Source of the DNA: an uncultured Oscillospiraceae bacterium | Lineage (GTDB): Bacteria > Bacillota > Clostridia > Oscillospirales > Ruminococcaceae | Direction of reading: 5' to 3' | Assembly (NCBI GenBank): GCA_949299455.1 | Contig: CASGAN010000005.1 | Coordinates: forward strand, 96,599 to 160,598 | DNA length: 64,000 nucleotides | In this document: one piece after another, positions 54,431-62,733 of the stretch | How the letters are laid out: the number at the start of each line of letters is the position of its first letter | How positions within the stretch are numbered: position 1 is the stretch's first letter | Made by a program: the position numbers and the translations under genes | Notes under the pieces: generated by a model | Told to the model about the DNA's origin: nothing | Databases searched by the model: none | What the model saw: only the letters and a program-made list of their open reading frames with translations

Positions 54431-54506
54431 TGGAGCGGATGACGAGGCTCGAACTCGCTACCTCCACCTTGGCAAGGTGGCGCTCTACCAGATGAGCTAC
54501 ATCCGC
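54431..54506 (-). tRNA. tRNA-Gly (GCC)
   Basis: A full cloverleaf: acceptor GCGGATG/CATCCGC, anticodon loop CTTGCCA with GCC, T-arm GAGTTCGAGCCTC, encoded CCA. Last of four in one transcript. Confidence 0.97.
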
Positions 54507-54542
54507 ATATTCAGTGCTGTCACCTTGTGACAGACCACTAAA

Positions 54543-54618
<76 letters not shown>

Positions 54619-54621
54619 AAA

Positions 54622-54698
54622 TGGCGACCCGCATCGGGCTCGAACCGACGACCTCTAGCGTGACAGGCTAGCGCTCTAACCAACTGAGCTAGCGGGCC
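54622..54698 (-). tRNA. tRNA-Asp (GTC)
   Basis: Acceptor GGCCCGC/GCGGGTC with one G-U pair, anticodon loop CTGTCAC with GTC, discriminator G as expected for Asp, encoded CCA. Confidence 0.97.
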
Positions 54699-54701
54699 AA
54701 G

Positions 54702-54777
54702 TGGTGGGAACAACAGGGCTCGAACCTGTGACCCTCTGCTTGTAAGGCAGATGCTCTCCCAGCTGAGCTATGCTCCC
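54702..54777 (-). tRNA. tRNA-Val (TAC)
   Basis: Acceptor GGGAGCA paired with TGTTCCC, anticodon loop CTTACAA with TAC, T-arm AGGTTCGAGCCCT, encoded CCA. First gene of the tRNA transcript. Confidence 0.97.
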
Positions 54778-54821
54778 ACTTGATTGCTGGTTTGTTGCTG
54801 TATCTCTCAGCGACGTTTGTT

Positions 54822-54850
54822 ATTATACCCTATAGAGATCGAAAAGTCAA
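54822..54850 (-). promoter_or_regulatory. Promoter of the tRNA operon
   Basis: Minus-strand TTGACT and TATAAT boxes, 17-bp spacer, about 45 bp before tRNA-Val; AT-rich sequence upstream could act as an UP element. Confidence 0.9.
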
Positions 54851-54968
54851 CCCCTTTTTTGCATTTTTTTTGACTTTTTTTATTTTTTTCGAGAAAGCCC
54901 GTCATATCGGGCTTTGAGAGGCATTTTTCGAATGAATTTTCGTTCGCTCGGATGATTTTTTATAAAAT

Positions 54969-55010
54969 AAAAAATCAGCAGAAAACACATTTCTGCATTT
55001 TCTGCTGATT
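54969..55010 (-). terminator. Terminator of carA-carB/dapF
   Basis: AATCAGCAGAAAA/TTTTCTGCTGATT hairpin then TTTTTATTTT on the minus strand, 27 nt after the fusion gene. Between it and the tRNA promoter lies an AAAGCCCG/CGGGCTTT hairpin without a T-run (54894-54915) and otherwise only AT-rich sequence. Confidence 0.88.
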
Positions 55011-55036
55011 CGATTTGTTTTAATCAAAGATCTTTT

Positions 55037-58000
55037 TTATAACGAAACTTCTACCTCACCGGTAAAGACGGTTTTGGCTTCACCAGTCATGAACACTGCG
55101 TCATCAGTGTAACGGATGACCAGTTCACCGCCGGACAGTTTCACGGTAATGTCTGCGTTTTTCTCGCAGAAGCCATTGAGCACTGCTGCAACAGCCGATG
55201 CACAAGCGCCTGTACCGCAAGCAAGTGTTTCGCCGCTTCCGCGTTCCCAAACACGCATTTTGATTGTTTTCTTGTCAATCACCTGAACAAATTCTGTGTT
55301 CACACCCTGCGGGAACAGTGTGTTCTTTTCAAACACGCGGCCAATACCTGCAAGATCCAGGCTGTCTACATCATCACAGAACACAACACAGTGCGGGTTG
55401 CCCATCGACACACAAGTGATATACTGGCGTGTTCCGCCGATCATCACCGGTTCGTTGATGATTGCTTTTCCGGACAGCATCACCGGCACACGCTCAGGCT
55501 CCAGCTCTGCTTTGCCCATATTCACACAAACACTGTCAACTTTTCCGTCCACAACGTTGAGCGAAAGGTCTTTGACACCGCTTAATGTCTCAACTGCAAT
55601 GCGGTCAGAATTGACAATGCGGTTGTCATACAGGTATTTGCCTACGCAGCGAATACCGTTGCCGCACATTTTGCCCTCGCTGCCGTCTGTGTTGAAGATA
55701 CGCATTTTTGCAGCTGCCACATCCGAACGGCAGATGAGGATGACACCGTCGCCGCCAACGCCATAATGACGATCTGCAAGTGTGAGTGTGAGTTTTTCCG
55801 GATTGTCGATTTCTTCGTCCATGCAGTTGATGTAGATATAGTCGTTTCCGCATCCCTGCATTTTGGTAAACGAAATCTGTTTGACCGATTTTTCCGCAAC
55901 GCCGCGGCGTGTATTCATGTGGTTGATGTCTACAAGCTCCGTATTGTTCTGGGTAAATCCACTCTTAAGGCTCTCTGCAAGTGCGCTTGCAGTATCGAGC
56001 GAGGTCAGACACGGAACACCCAGCTCCACAGCTCTGCGGCGCAGTTTTACGCTGTCTCTTGCCGGCAGACGGCCTTTTGCGGAGGTCGAGATGATATAGC
56101 TGATACGACCGCTCTCCAGAAGTGTTTTTGTATTCTCGGAAGATTCGTGAATCTTCTTGACTGCATTGACGATCAGTCCTGCGTCACGCAGTACTGCTGC
56201 AGTGCCCTCGGTTGCATACAGTGCAAAGCCAAGATCCGCATAGCGGCGTGCCACATCGGCAATCTCACCTTTATCAGAATCTTTGACGGTCACGAGTACG
56301 CCGCCCTCACACTGCATCTTATAGCCTGCTGCAACAAGGCCTTTATACAGTGCTTCGTCGAGCGAACGGCCGATACCCAATACCTCACCGGTCGATTTCA
56401 TCTCCGGACCGAGCTGTACGTCAACGTCAGCCAGTTTTTCAAACGAGAACACCGGTACTTTTACGCAGATGTACGGCGGAACCGGATACAGACCTGTACC
56501 GTAGCCCATGCTGTCAAGCGACTCACCAAGCATTGCACGAACAGCCAGATCGACCATCGGCACGCCGGTTACTTTACTGATATACGGGATCGTACGGGAC
56601 GAACGCGGGTTCACCTCGATGACGTAGATTTCACCCTCATGCATAACGTACTGAATGTTGACAAGACCTTTTGTATTCAGTGCAAGCGACAGCATTTTTG
56701 TGTATTCAAGCAGACGGTTCTGCTGTGCGCTTGTCAGGTTCCATGCCGGATATACAGCGATCGAGTCACCCGAGTGGACGCCTGCACGCTCGATATGCTC
56801 CATAACGCCCGGAATCAAGACGTCTTTTCCGTCGCAGATTGCGTCAACCTCAAGCTCAATACCCATCATGTATTTGTCGATGAGCACCGGGTTTTCGATG
56901 TTGTGCGACAGAATAATTTTCATATATTCTCTGATGTCCGCTTCGCTGAACGCGATGATCATGTTCTGACCACCGAGGACGTACGAAGGACGCATCAGCA
57001 CCGGATAACCGAGTTTTTCTGCTGCTTCAAGTGCTTCTTCCATCGTCATAACCGAGCAGCCACGCGGACGTTTGATGTTGAGTTCTTCAAGCAGTGCGTC
57101 AAAACGCTCGCGGTCCTCTGCCAAGTCGATCGAATCGCCCGATGTGCCGAGAATGCGGACACCTGCTGCTTCCAGATGTTTGGTCAGTTTGATCGCAGTC
57201 TGACCGCCGAATGCAACGACAGCGCCGTACGGTTTCTCCACGTTAATGACGTGCATGACATCTTCCGGTGTCAGCGGCTCAAAGTACAGACGATCTGCTG
57301 TGTTGAAGTCGGTGGAAACGGTCTCCGGGTTGTTGTTAATGATAACAACGTCAAAACCTGCTTTTTTCAGTGCCCACACACAGTGAACCGACGCATAGTC
57401 GAACTCAATGCCCTGGCCGATACGGATCGGACCGGAACCGAATACGATAACCGTTTTGCGGTCCGAATTCTTTGCACGGATAAACGCGCCTGCCTCGTCT
57501 TCCTCGTCGAAGGTTGCATAGAAGTACGGTGTCTGTGCATCAAACTCTGCACCGCAGGTATCAACCATTTTGTAGGAAGCATGCAGTGTGATCGGCGGTT
57601 CCTGTCCGCTCATGCGGCGGATGGTGCTATCCAGATAGCCGTTGTGTTTTGCTGTACGGTAGAGTTCTTCCGTGAGCGGCTCAGATGCAAGACGGCGCTC
57701 GAGTTTTACGAGATTTTCAAGTTTATGCAAAAACCACAGGTCGATTTTGGTGACCTCGTGGATGCGCTCACACGAAATGCCGCGTTTGAGTGCTTCAAAC
57801 AGCACAAACAGACGCTCGTCGTCGCAGTTATAGAGTTTACCGTCGATTTCCTCATCGGTGCACTCTGCCAGTTTCGGCATGTTGAGTGTATCGAGCGAAA
57901 GCTCTGCACCGCGGACCGCTTTCATGATGCCCTCTTCGAAGTTCTGGCCGATTGCCATGACCTCGCCGGTTGCTTTCATCTGGGTGCCGAGGGTACGTTT

Positions 58001-59104
58001 TGCGTAAACGAATTTATCAAACGGCCATTTCGGCAGTTTTACAACGAAATAGTCAATCGTCGGCTCAAAGCAAGCGTATGTTTTGCCGGTGACAGCGTTC
58101 TCGATCTCATCGAGTGTAAAGCCGACTGCGATTTTCGATGCAACTTTTGCGATCGGGTAACCGGTTGCTTTCGATGCCAGTGCGGAAGAACGCGATACAC
58201 GCGGGTTAACCTCGATCACGGCATACTCAAAGCTGTTCGGATTGAGTGCGAACTGGCAGTTACAGCCGCCCTCGATACCGAGTGCTGTAATGATGTTCAG
58301 TGCTGCCGAACGGAGCATCTGATATTCTTTATCGGAAAGTGTGACTGCCGGTGCAACGACGATACTGTCGCCGGTATGAACGCCGACCGGGTCAAAGTTC
58401 TCCATGGAGCAGACGGTGATGACGTTGCCTGCGGAGTCGCGGATGACCTCAAATTCGATCTCTTTCCAACCGGAAACACAACGCTCAACGAGTACCTGTG
58501 TGATCGGGGAAAGACGCAAGCCTACCGAAGCGATCTCGTGCAGTTCTTCCTCGTTGTTTGCGATACCGCCGCCGGAACCGCCCAGTGTAAATGCTGGGCG
58601 AACGATCAGCGGATAGCCGACACGCTCTGCAAAGCTCATTGCGGTTTCTACGTCGTTTGCAATGACAGACGGGATAACCGGCTCGCCGATTTCTTCCATC
58701 GTCTCTTTAAAGATCAAGCGGTCCTCTGCTTTGTCGATTGTTTCCGGTTTTGCACCGAGCAGACGAACGTTGTGCGCATCCAAAAAGCCCTCTTTTGCAA
58801 GCTGCATCGAAAGCGTAAGGCCAGTCTGTCCACCCAGTGTGGAAAGCAGGCTGTCCGGTTTTTCTTTTTCAATAATACGTTTTACCGTATCGATGGTCAG
58901 CGGCTCAATGTAGATTTCGTCTGCCATTGCACCGTCTGTCATGATGGTCGCCGGGTTCGAGTTGATCAGAACAACCTCAAGACCCTCTTCTTTGAGCGCG
59001 CGGCAGGCCTGTGTGCCCGCATAGTCAAACTCAACAGCCTGACCGATGACAATCGGACCGGAACCGATCACCAATACTTTTTTAATATCTTTATTCAGCG
59101 GCAT
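55037..59104 (-). CDS. carB-dapF: Fusion of carbamoyl phosphate synthase large subunit (CarB) and diaminopimelate epimerase (DapF)
   Basis: One 1355-codon frame. Residues 1-1048 are a full CarB: two ATP-grasp halves opening [20 protein letters not shown] and [20 protein letters not shown], and an MGS-like allosteric domain at 936-1048. A linker of about 27 residues (1049-1075) leads into a complete DapF at 1076-1355, starting [17 protein letters not shown]; both catalytic cysteines are present, C1147 (MCGNGIRC) and C1296 (ACGTGACA). No internal ribosome site precedes the linker methionine or the later ATG. CarB makes carbamoyl phosphate for pyrimidines and arginine; DapF makes meso-DAP for lysine and peptidoglycan. 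GGGAGG precedes the start, 20 bp after carA. Confidence 0.96.
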
Positions 59105-59124
59105 ACAAAAAATCCTCCCTTTTC

Positions 59125-60207
59125 TCAGCGGTTTTGATCCATCATTGCAGTGAAGCGGTCAAACAAGAACATCGTATCACGCGGACCGCCGCATGCCTCC
59201 GGATGGAACTGTACGGAGAATACCGGCATATTCAAATAGGTAATTCCTTCGTTTGTGTGGTCGTTTGCGTTGATAAAGCAAGCTTTTGCATAATCCGGAA
59301 TGCTGGAAGTTTCCACAGCGTAACCGTGGTTCTGGCTTGTGATATACACTTTACCGCTCTCCATATCGCGTACCGGCTGGTTGCCGCCGCGATGACCGTA
59401 CTGCAATTTTGTTGTTTTTGCACCCTGGGAAAGTGCTAAAAGCTGATGACCTAAGCAGATACCGAACATCGGCACACGATATTCGCACAGCTTTTTGAGC
59501 TCAGCAATGACGCCGGTGTTTTCTGCCGGATCGCCAGGGCCGTTCGACAGCATAACACCGTCCGGCTTATAGCTCATAATCTCCTCTGCAGTGGTGGAAG
59601 CCGGCACACGAATCACTGTGCAGCCTTTTTTCTGCAGTTTTTTGATGATGTTTTTCTTTGCACCAAAGTCCCACAGCACTACTTTATACTTCTCGTTTTC
59701 TGCCGGAAGCACTTCGACTTCTTTGCAGGTCATCTTTTTGACTGCATCGGTTACGCGATAAGCGGCAAGCTCTGCTTTCACTTCAGTTAGATCTTCCGGA
59801 AGCTCGGAAGTAATCCGCGCGTTCATATTTCCACAGTCACGGATGATCTTTGTCAATGCGCGTGTATCAATTCCGTACATTCCCACGATATTCGAGGCTT
59901 TTAAAAAGGCGTCAAGATCTCCCTCGCAACGGAAATTGGAAGGATCATGACACCATTCTCTTACAATATAAGCACTCAATTTCGGTCCATCGCTCTCAAA
60001 ATCCGATGCCATTACCCCGTAATTGCCGATCATCGGAAATGTCTGAATAACGATCTGACCATAATAGCTCGGATCGGTCAATGTTTCAACATATCCGGTC
60101 ATGGAAGTGGTGAAAACGACTTCGCCTGTTACATCGCCCGATGCACCAAACGATTTTCCGCGAAAAACGGTGCCGTTTTCCAGAATCAAATAGATAGATT
60201 TCTCCAT
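59125..60207 (-). CDS. carA: Carbamoyl phosphate synthase small subunit
   Basis: A 360-aa glutamine amidotransferase subunit that feeds ammonia to CarB. The N-terminal half is the CarA-specific domain ([20 protein letters not shown]); the class I amidotransferase triad is C251 ([11 protein letters not shown]), H335 and E337 ([12 protein letters not shown]). The ATG is set by AGGAGG at 7 nt; the longest frame adds 18 residues from the leader. First gene of the operon with carB-dapF. Confidence 0.97.
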
Positions 60208-60284
60208 GCTGTTTCCTCCTGTATTTTGGTAAAAATAAAACGAATGAAGCGGATTCCTCATAAAAATTTATCCGGACTCCAAAA

Positions 60285-60394
60285 CAACCGAAGCGGCTTT
60301 TTTCAATCGGCACCCCGCATGAAACATCTTTCATGCGGTTGTCGGGAGACTTCTCTCCGAAAAAACGCTCCGCTTCGGTTGGCGTTTGCCGATT
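60285..60394 (-). promoter_or_regulatory. Structured carA leader, candidate riboswitch or attenuator
   Basis: On the minus strand, 60394-60305 can form a compact four-way junction: P1 AATCGGCA/TGCCGATT (60387-60394 with 60305-60312), P2 AACGC...GCGTT (60364-60386), P3 TCGGAGA-GAAG-TCTCCCGA (60342-60360), P4 CCGCATGAAA-GATG-TTTCATGCGG (60315-60338), with junction linkers 0, TTT, CAA and GG. Immediately downstream, CCGCTTCGGTTG (60285-60296) is exactly complementary to 12 nt of P2 (60370-60381), so an alternative fold exists. P2 is followed by TTTTTT and could itself be a terminator. I cannot assign it to a known class. Confidence 0.6.
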
Positions 60395-60477
60395 TGTTCC
60401 GTATGACGGATATCGACGTTATGAGTGTATTCACACACGACCTCTGAGATTAAACAACCGTTTAAACCCTTTTATCT

Positions 60478-60506
60478 ATTATACAGCGTGAAACACAATT
60501 TTTCAC
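60478..60506 (-). promoter_or_regulatory. Promoter of the carA operon
   Basis: Minus-strand GTGAAA and TATAAT boxes with a 17-bp spacer; start point near 60471, giving a leader of about 265 nt before carA. Confidence 0.8.
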
Positions 60507-60594
60507 TATTTTTCTCATTGGCATTTTCACGATTTTTGCGCGAAAATAAAGCATTTTTCTGTCACGATAGTGCATCCTGTCATTTGAGAGCGAA

Positions 60595-62733
60595 TCATGC
60601 CTTTTTAAACCGCGAAAACATCTTACTGACCCATCCATTTTTTACAGATTCATTCGGTTTTGCGTTTGCTTCCGCCTCCTGCATGAATGCATCCTGACAC
60701 GAAAGCGGTGCTTCACCGTTTGAAACCTGAAGATACGTACCGTCACGCATCAAGCGGCGTGCTTTTACGTTATCATGCAGCATGGTCATTAAAAAGTCAA
60801 TCAGCCGCTGTTTTATCTGTGCAGACTTCACCGGGCATGCAATTTCAACACGGCGTGTCATATTCCGTGTCATAAAATCCGCTGAAGAAATGTAGACTTC
60901 ACTTTCGCCGTTTGCCATAAAGCAGTACACGCGCGAGTGTTCCAAAAAGCGTCCAACGACGCTTGTCACAGTGATGTTTTCAGTTTTCCCCGGAATCTGC
61001 GGCAAAATACAGCAAATACCGCGTACAATCAGCTGGATTTTGACACCCGCATCGGAAGCTGCCTGCAGCCTGTCAATCAACACACGATCCGTAACAGAGT
61101 TTGTCTTGATGATCATGTGCGCATCCTGACCGGATTGTGCCAGATGTGTCATTTCATCAATTTTCTCAATAATACGCGACTGCATCTCATTCGGCGCAAC
61201 CATCAGTTCCCGATATGTTCCCTCTAAATTGGACAGTGCCATATTTTTAAAGAACTCGCTTGCATCCTGACCGATCGCCGGATCGGATGTCATCAGACAA
61301 AAGTCTGTATAGAGCTTTGCCGTTTTTTCATTATAGTTGCCTGTACCGATTTGCGTTAAATACTGCACCTTGCCCTTTTCCTGACGGGTAATCAAGCAGA
61401 TTTTCGAATGTACCTTGTAATCCTCCATGCCGTAAATCACTTGGCACCCTGCATCTTCAAGCGTTTCGGACCAGTTGATGTTGTTCTGTTCATCAAACCG
61501 CGCACGCAGTTCCAAAAGCGCTACCACATCTTTTCCGTTTTCCGACGCTTTGGTGAGCGCTTCCACCAGTCTTGACGACGACGCCAACCGGTAGATGGTA
61601 ATTTTGATCGACACAACCGCCGGATCAACTGCTGCTTCTTCCACCAGCTTCAAAAACGGCTCCATACTCTCATATGGATACGACAAAAACAGATCGCGTT
61701 TCATCACCTGACGGGTAATGCTTTCATTCGGATTGACCATTGCGGACGGCATCGGCTTAAACGGACGATACGACATCGACTTTCTTGCCGCCGGTGTCAT
61801 CCGCTCGGAAAGACCATAGACATAGGAAAGATCGAGCGGCGTTTTGCTTTTAAACACCTGCTCTTTTTTGAGCGATAACTGATGCATGAAAAATTCACGC
61901 AGTTCTGCCGAACCTTCTCCGCCGAACAGTTCGAGCCGCACACACGCAAGACGTGCGCGTTTTTTAATCACACGCTTCATATGGTGGCGGTAATCGTCAT
62001 CCACTTCAAAGTTCTCGTCATCCGGGTTGATGTCGGCATTTCTTGTCACACAAATGACTGCTTTATCCGAAACGGTATACATGGAAAAGACGTCCTCCGT
62101 ATATGAAAGCAGAACTTGTTCAAGCAGAATATAGCGAACGGATGCACCCGGCAAAAAAATCACACGCGGCAATGCATCGGGCACAGGAATCAATCCAAAT
62201 TGCTCTTTTTCTTTTCCCTTCCCATGAAATCGCACAGCGACATAACGCGCTTTATTGATCAAATGCGGAAACGGATGACTCGGATCAACAATCTGCGGCG
62301 AAAGCACTGGACGGATGGTATTTCGATAATAGTTTTCAATGTACCGCTGTTCCGATTCGATCAAATCGCGCGGCTGTACACGTGTGATATCATGAAGGCG
62401 CAGCTGCTCTTCAATTTCTTCCATCACTTTATCCCGCCGTTTGTAAAGCGGTGCCACTGCATCATAGATTGCACGGAGCTGCTCTTCCGGTGTCATCCCG
62501 GTTTTGTTGTCAATATGGACTTGTTTTAAAAGCGACAGGTCAAACAAGCTGCCCACACGAATCATAAAAAACTCGTCCAGATTGCTTGTAAAAATAGCGG
62601 CAAATTTTAAGCGTTCAAACAGCGGAACCGTTGCATCCGCCGCTTCGGCAAGCACGCGCTCATTAAACCGCAGCCACGAAAGTTCGCGGTTTTGGGTGTA
62701 GCTTGTGTCCAAGTTAAATGGTTTTGTTGACAT
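60595..62733 (-). CDS. ppk: Polyphosphate kinase 1
   Basis: A 712-aa PPK1 that builds polyphosphate from ATP. The N-domain begins YTQNRELSWLRFNERVLAEA, and the catalytic histidine region is DYKVHSKICLITRQEKGK, followed by QIGTGNYNEKTAKLYTDFCLM. Two phospholipase D-like C domains complete it. It starts 12 bp after ppx, so kinase and phosphatase are made from one message. Confidence 0.97.
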   Translation of the reverse strand: MSTKPFNLDTSYTQNRELSWLRFNERVLAEAADATVPLFERLKFAAIFTSNLDEFFMIRVGSLFDLSLLKQVHIDNKTGMTPEEQLRAIYDAVAPLYKRRDKVMEEIEEQLRLHDITRVQPRDLIESEQRYIENYYRNTIRPVLSPQIVDPSHPFPHLINKARYVAVRFHGKGKEKEQFGLIPVPDALPRVIFLPGASVRYILLEQVLLSYTEDVFSMYTVSDKAVICVTRNADINPDDENFEVDDDYRHHMKRVIKKRARLACVRLELFGGEGSAELREFFMHQLSLKKEQVFKSKTPLDLSYVYGLSERMTPAARKSMSYRPFKPMPSAMVNPNESITRQVMKRDLFLSYPYESMEPFLKLVEEAAVDPAVVSIKITIYRLASSSRLVEALTKASENGKDVVALLELRARFDEQNNINWSETLEDAGCQVIYGMEDYKVHSKICLITRQEKGKVQYLTQIGTGNYNEKTAKLYTDFCLMTSDPAIGQDASEFFKNMALSNLEGTYRELMVAPNEMQSRIIEKIDEMTHLAQSGQDAHMIIKTNSVTDRVLIDRLQAASDAGVKIQLIVRGICCILPQIPGKTENITVTSVVGRFLEHSRVYCFMANGESEVYISSADFMTRNMTRRVEIACPVKSAQIKQRLIDFLMTMLHDNVKARRLMRDGTYLQVSNGEAPLSCQDAFMQEAEANAKPNESVKNGWVSKMFSRFKKA

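Follow-up and report, generated by a model that had tools for sequence, protein, structure and literature searches.

The textbook allosteric enzyme carbamoyl phosphate synthase serves pyrimidine and arginine synthesis, and meso-diaminopimelate (meso-DAP) serves lysine and cell-wall synthesis in bacteria. The synthase is fused to other enzymes in CAD and in mammalian CPS1, the latter keeping a catalytically dead glutaminase domain. The large subunit CarB of Escherichia coli (solved entry 1bxr and others) is a chain of 1073 residues that ends after the allosteric domain. Diaminopimelate epimerase, DapF, has been solved as a stand-alone protein (2otn, 9mro, 1gqz) and uses one cysteine as base and another as acid (PMC12039745). 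Here, a stretch of 64,000 nucleotides from an uncultured Oscillospiraceae bacterium (contig CASGAN010000005.1; the whole stretch is referred to as the window) was analysed, in which a single frame of 1355 amino acids (55037-59104, minus strand) encodes CarB, a linker and DapF.

The explanation regarded as likely overall is a bifunctional CarB-DapF protein whose DapF half has a second, non-catalytic role in the synthase. One polypeptide would provide the synthase large subunit and the sole DapF found in the window genome. Its DapF half would turn LL-DAP, the product of the LL-DAP aminotransferase DapL, into meso-DAP in genomes that produce this substrate and lack a stand-alone DapF, and it would also act inside the synthase in a structural or regulatory manner. 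The new point is the occurrence of known enzymes in a widespread fusion in which the catalytic pair was repeatedly lost and the domain was retained.

The fused frame and its catalytic cysteines

The CarB part comprises residues 1-1046 (55967..59104; this and all following window features lie on the minus strand). Residues 4-1045 matched TIGR01369 over its full length with 1437 bits (curated cut-off 1027), and 1484 bits were obtained with NF003671 (cut-off 599). The domain set was complete, with two copies each of PF02786 and PF25596 (both ATP-grasp halves), one PF02787 oligomerisation domain and one MGS-like allosteric domain (PF02142, 63.7 bits; residues 947-1034, 56003..56266). Residues 1-1053 matched E. 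coli CarB with 1069 bits; in contrast to the E. coli chain, the window protein continues into DapF. The DapF part (residues 1078-1355, 55040..55873) is followed by the stop codon at 55037-55039, and residues 1077-1351 scored 291.8 bits against TIGR00652 (cut-off 114.65). Alignment to solved DapFs identified the catalytic cysteines as Cys1147 (Cys1, codon 55664..55666) and Cys1296 (Cys2, codon 55217..55219), both intact. The window DapF shares sequence, both catalytic cysteines and the pocket with the stand-alone enzymes. These matches bear out the original prediction of a single frame with both cysteines, both ATP-grasp halves and the allosteric domain preserved; both halves look competent, and both activities may be present, as had been proposed.

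The linker (residues 1047-1077, 55874..55966) had been given as about 27 residues, which holds for one domain cut; over the possible cut points it measures 27-31 residues. Alignments of fused proteins revealed a conserved motif, TELVDINxM, followed mostly by Arg. Glu occupied position 1056 in 99-100% of the proteins, and Arg occupied position 1064 in 93-96% (Asn in the window protein). A genus-specific insert of seven residues within the linker was absent from 27 of the 30 first-aligned fused relatives, and the three carriers all belonged to the genus of the window.

The window genome (2.22 Mb, 99.76% complete) yielded one CarB and one DapF, both inside the fused frame. A second, stand-alone dapF, the check suggested with the original prediction, was searched for across this genome and not found. 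An enzyme making LL-DAP is encoded (DapL, E 1.9e-145); DapH was searched for in the same genome without success. Because a strong match to the meso-DAP dehydrogenase Ddh was obtained, DapF is not necessarily the sole route to meso-DAP there.

The pair of cysteines was not a property of the fused family as a whole. In 210 distinct fused DapFs, the Cys1 position was occupied by Cys (115), Ala (55), Gly (20), Ser (13), Phe (6) or Thr (1), so that Cys1 was lost in 95; Cys2 was Cys in 201, and both cysteines were present in 112. The set was derived from 223 rows, of which 215 were distinct in their last 250 residues and 210 contained both cysteine positions; the five rows left out ended at contig borders (L155, L302) or had no DapF (L209, L214, L222). 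Stand-alone DapFs, which are not attached to CarB, differed in that all 41 distinct proteins kept both cysteines and none lacked Cys1, in a set taken largely from best-scoring matches and hence biased towards intact ones. Members without Cys1 still scored far above the DapF cut-off (266-277 bits against 114.65 in genomes G462, G429 and G454). Judged by their residues, fused members lacking either cysteine should not be called epimerases, and pathway reconstructions that count Cys1-less members as such may be wrong.

On the CarB tree, 20 changes of the Cys1 state were counted by parsimony, and 22-32 loss groups were obtained depending on the treatment of weak nodes. The tree included 203 of the 210 proteins; the chosen outgroup did not form one group, so the loss-group counts are rough, and the parsimony count is independent of the root. 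All trees in this work were calculated with FastTree only.

The state of the cysteines was compared with the DAP genes of the genomes. Of 65 tabulated genomes that lack a stand-alone DapF, all 34 with DapL had an intact pair, and 26 of the 31 without DapL had a broken one (Fisher p 2e-13, uncorrected for kinship or selection). Ddh was found in 25 of these 26 broken-pair genomes, the remaining one (G962) having none of the routes searched for. In the 25 Cys1-less genomes with Ddh only, DapL was above the cut-off in none (one partial match, G429) and DapH likewise in none. The absence of LL-DAP from Cys-less genomes without DapL was deduced from the absence of DapL and DapH, the succinyl route and a pyridoxal-phosphate (PLP-type) DapF2 being unsearched. 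Five genomes had an intact pair without DapL: G488 and G1027 encode DapH, G417 encodes Ddh, G056 is only 75% complete, and G1045 is unexplained.

A larger table of 174 genomes was scored for an alternative route to meso-DAP, i.e. a second DapF or a strong Ddh (E < 1e-60; eight genomes with weak matches were scored as lacking Ddh). Such a route was present in 92 of 98 genomes with a broken pair versus 46 of 76 with an intact pair (Fisher p 9e-8, likewise uncorrected); DapL is the sharper predictor of the two. In an earlier table of 125 genomes, 46 broken-pair genomes had an alternative and 6 had none, versus 43 and 30 for the intact pair. The tables of 174 and 65 genomes are non-random samples, since order-level Cys-less genomes without a second DapF were picked for the Ddh test. 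The counts of second DapFs were taken from a protein search for 40 other genomes and from Pfam halves for five, and a second DapF match can be a second fused copy, as seen in G043 and G1006.

Gene order was also evaluated. At loci with at least 1000 nt of downstream sequence, the start of dapL was no more than 400 nt past the end of the fused gene in 29 of the 98 with an intact pair and in 0 of the 59 with a broken one; this frequent proximity goes beyond what the original prediction had guessed. Eleven Cys1-less genomes had a second DapF and no Ddh; DapL was present in seven of them, and in six of these seven (G936, G848, G930, G808, G1011, G1012) the stand-alone dapF was located at most 2 kb from dapL. 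Three loci (L201, L137, L252) have a stand-alone dapF downstream of the fused gene and in the same orientation, about 200 bp to 2 kb away; in the DapF tree these three copies cluster together and perhaps stem from a duplication of the fused domain.

Because genomes that produce LL-DAP and lack a stand-alone DapF keep the catalytic pair, the fused DapF is probably the working epimerase in such genomes, that of the window included. Two sets of results weigh against this account. The kinship-corrected independent-pairs tests gave 4.3 pairs in the same and 0 in the opposite direction for DapL (median p 0.125), and 3.5 versus 0.3 for the alternative routes (median p 0.25); both have the right direction and are not significant because the pairs are too few. 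Furthermore, a second DapF, a strong Ddh and DapH were all missing in searches of six broken-pair genomes (G566, G425, G985, G719, G962, G1013), of which four are 65-91% complete, G1013 is unrated and G962 is 99% complete. The fused DapF of G962 (L293) is degenerate around Cys2 and other motifs, and of a second DapF, Ddh, DapL and DapH, all searched for in this genome, none was found.

Retention of the domain without Cys1

All 95 Cys1-less DapF parts had a length of 268-294 residues and ended at the stop codon. Their pocket residues were largely kept (N1138 100%, N1149 96%, N1236 97%, N1269 97%, E1287 98%, R1288 95%, G1297 100%, T1298 98%), as was Cys2 (93%). The residues that hold the DAP carboxylate in solved DapF, namely Gly76, Asn77, Gly225 and Thr226 there (PMC12039745), correspond to Gly1148, Asn1149, Gly1297 and Thr1298 of the window protein and were kept in 96-100% of the Cys1-less class. 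An AlphaFold model of the tail of a Cys1-less member (L247) reached a mean predicted local distance difference test (pLDDT) score of 89.6, with most of the DapF part above 90. DapFs were the best structural matches of this model, so the fold of the stand-alone enzyme is still recognized.

Ratios of nonsynonymous to synonymous substitution (dN/dS) were calculated for 41 intact, 20 Cys1-less and 4 mixed pairs, from which 10, 6 and 1 pairs with saturated dS, respectively, were dropped for the medians. The median was 0.076 for Cys1-less and 0.040 for intact pairs; by this measure, the Cys1-less DapFs are under purifying selection. The ratio of DapF to CarB dN was 1.61 in intact and 1.72 in Cys1-less pairs, DapF being the faster part. 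Since lineages seemingly without need for the epimerase lose Cys1 and keep the domain, most of the pocket and the linker, a second role is very probable, and something other than epimerisation probably keeps the domain in place.

Several findings count against such a role. Residues near the active site drift in the Cys1-less class: D1119 falls from 100% to 80% and D1111 to 64%, and Asn1087, the equivalent of Asn13 in a solved DapF (PMC12039745), is Asn in 80% and Asp in 17%. Constraint on the Cys1-less domain is somewhat weaker, as the two medians indicate, and three of the four mixed pairs gave dN/dS values of 0.07-0.24, the fourth being saturated. In six fused proteins Cys1 is replaced by Phe, which may fill the pocket, and in one fused lineage (L214) the DapF domain is gone.

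Drift and raised dN/dS, highest in the mixed pairs, would be expected if the protein were a plain bifunctional fusion, joined for dosage or translation only, whose Cys-less domains are relics being lost; the loss of Cys1 also tracks the lost need for an epimerase, as relaxed selection predicts. A relic should, however, decay or be truncated, whereas every one of the 95 domains is of full length, the modelled member folds with high confidence, most pocket residues stand at 95-100% and the median dN/dS is low. One domain loss was seen (L214), in a search that was not designed to catch all losses. Decay of a relic is therefore considered unlikely. The equal dosage of two active enzymes, which the original prediction had put forward as the consequence of the fusion, is incomplete as an explanation, because 95 of 210 fused DapFs lack Cys1 and are still kept whole.

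A change of chemistry was considered as well. Other members of the DapF fold do other chemistry, and several such folds were among the structural matches. If the Cys1-less domains ran another reaction with the remaining Cys2, its retention in 93% of the class would be accounted for, as would a concerted change in the active site, the motif ERGSGET being altered to ERGNGET in 65 of 95 Cys1-less but in 3 of 115 intact fused DapFs. Five different replacements of Cys1 (A, G, S, F, T) nevertheless suit a loss better than one new chemistry. A neighbouring gene pointing to a new substrate may have escaped notice, as the neighbours were searched for carA and dapL only. A new enzyme appears quite improbable on this evidence.

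The second role that we favour could be purely structural, the DapF part setting the oligomeric state or the stability of the synthase without any ligand. DapF from E. coli is dimeric as a stand-alone protein (PMC4227774), the short linker of the fused proteins is conserved at Glu1056 and position 1064, and an AlphaFold model of window residues 545-1355 reached a pLDDT of 87.1 and a predicted template modelling score (pTM) of 0.83. The linker was poorly resolved in this model. A pure scaffold would have no need of the DAP-binding residues, yet these are mostly near-invariant; they may also serve the fold. A structural role is accordingly held as a tentative possibility.

In the boldest reading, DAP itself is sensed. 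UDP-N-acetylmuramic acid (UDP-MurNAc), which is derived from uridine monophosphate (UMP), and meso-DAP meet in peptidoglycan precursors. For this reason it is conceivable, though again only tentatively so, that DAP bound in the pocket beside the allosteric domain tunes the output of carbamoyl phosphate, so that the supply of UMP and UDP-MurNAc would be matched to the other cell-wall precursor. In Ddh lineages the domain would then serve for sensing alone, as a pseudo-epimerase with many independent origins. The structural role and the DAP sensor are about equally likely. Related organisms carry the same fused domain in versions that have the catalytic pair and versions that lack it, a natural experiment by which a non-catalytic role can be tested directly.

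Distribution, origin and surroundings of the fused gene

Within the genus of the window, the fusion was present in 4 of 8 genomes, with open frames spanning 1367-1373 codons; the three proteins besides that of the window were 80-98% identical to it. Of the non-fused members, G003 has a stand-alone DapF, and G002, G006 and G007 gave no DapF match in protein and Pfam searches. DapL and DapH were likewise missing in the latter three genomes, for which the only Ddh match was weak and lay in a frame some 300 codons long. At least 42 of 396 genomes of the family and at least 83 of 245 genomes of the order had a DapF match inside a frame of about 1300 codons or longer; part of these frames were fetched, and elsewhere the long frame stands in for the fusion. 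In the class, a profile of 74 positions across the junction was matched nearly end to end (from position 1-2 to 72-74) in 58 of 391 sampled genomes; these 58 represent 28 families and include three members of the window's genus. The junction, which the original prediction had proposed for comparison with relatives, is thus conserved more widely than guessed. Among those listed, the weaker profile matches were partial; the widest began at position 14 or 15 and ran across stop codons.

Among the best 80 of 271 relatives, carriers included Ruminococcus albus KH2T6, Ruminococcus sp. FC2018 and many uncultured Clostridia. The gene carA lies directly upstream of the fused gene in 156 of the 172 fused loci that extend 600 nt or more in that direction. 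No plasmid copies of the junction were obtained by megablast with 501 bases around it. One metagenome bin, named Chitinispirillia, also contains a fused gene (L145), either through transfer or because a contig was wrongly binned. Four loci of one genus (L223, L231, L236 and L238 in G523, G497, G441 and G473) carry about 165-175 extra residues ahead of CarB-DapF; on reading, these resemble the N-terminal domain of CarA without the glutaminase domain, and the resulting triple fusion may be ammonia-dependent. Repetitive inserts within CarB were present in L205 (G614; 220 residues after residue 506) and in L109 and L278 (86 Ala/Gly-rich residues after residue 474).

The fused frame might in principle be an artefact, either through an assembly error or because two proteins are made by internal initiation or cleavage. 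No support for this was found; both methionine positions of the junction carry an ATG codon in 159 of 210 genes. The same frame recurs in about 200 loci, among them those of G620 and G809, genomes that consist of a single contig, and a Shine-Dalgarno-like site ahead of the junction methionines was seen in 0 of 210 genes as compared to 3% at random internal places. An assembly error, named with the original prediction as a possible cause, was rejected given the recurrence in genus, family, order and class, and an internal start yielding a separate DapF was rejected on account of the missing Shine-Dalgarno-like sites. An artefact is regarded as highly improbable.

A tree of 232 CarBs was rooted on an unfused one. 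All 202 fused proteins fell into a clade of 206 members (support 0.999), the four others being L209, L222, L155 (cut by a contig end) and L214. Two of these, L209 and L222, are unfused CarBs with the same tail that form the sister branch to the remainder of the clade. In L209, a separate dapF starts about 50 bp behind carB and is followed by a gene that reads like pyrG (translation read by eye); this arrangement may represent the state before fusion. CarB-DapF probably arose once, from adjacent carB and dapF genes, as the tree suggests. The sequence of L214 stops after the tail and is nested among fused CarBs, by which position it is a secondary loss of the DapF domain.

A single origin has to be weighed against the support of only 0.71 for the node of the fused proteins and against midpoint rooting, which places L209 and L222 with other unfused CarBs; an early split in the lineage of the two may therefore have occurred. 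In L068 and L072, which belong to another CarB lineage without the fusion tail, a separate dapF frame is located directly behind carB, so that this neighbourhood is not unique to the fused clade.

In the window, carA for the synthase small subunit (59125..60261; TIGR01368, 454 bits) ends 20 nt upstream of the fused gene; from a reading of the sequence, its true start may be the ATG at 60207. A putative terminator-like hairpin of 18 pairs with a T-rich tail (54972..55011) was detected just 3' of the fused gene by a consensus scan alone, which gave 11 such sites in the window as compared to 6.6 in shuffled sequence. Four tRNA genes (Gly, Phe, Asp, Val; 54431-54777) are located downstream beyond this hairpin. 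A carA leader with control over the DAP supply, as originally suggested, was not supported: an Rfam scan of positions 54500-61000 gave only three tRNA matches above the cut-off, and three other matches were weak (up to E 1).

Comparison with known systems

A description of a CarB-DapF fusion was not found in the partial literature searched (titles and abstract starts of the hits listed, with few subscription journals or preprints and without database annotation), in agreement with the original prediction, whose author knew of none. DapF is discussed in PMC9026213, and the portion of its text that was available contains no CarB fusion. The fusion, which the sample of 391 genomes places in 28 families of a single class, physically ties nucleotide supply to cell-wall supply.

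In CAD and CPS1, the partners of carbamoyl phosphate synthase come from the same pathway or are its own glutaminase, whereas the partner here is an enzyme of lysine and cell-wall synthesis, attached at the C-terminus. A DapF with a second function has been described in Chlamydia trachomatis, where the protein also has glutamate racemase activity (PMC5885031, from the part available). There the second function is catalytic; the window DapF scored 118.5 bits with the model for bifunctional DapF/glutamate racemase (NF038284), far below the cut-off of 350. Closer to the role proposed here is the action of E. coli DapF on RppH (PMC4227774): the variant C73&217A, in which both cysteines are replaced, was still able to bind RppH and to stimulate it, so the catalytic cysteines are dispensable for this action of DapF on its partner. 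The E. coli case differs in that the two are separate proteins, the partner is another enzyme and the natural DapF is active. The cysteine-replaced E. coli protein offers a precedent for a DapF that influences another enzyme without catalysis, as the domain would do within the fused synthase.

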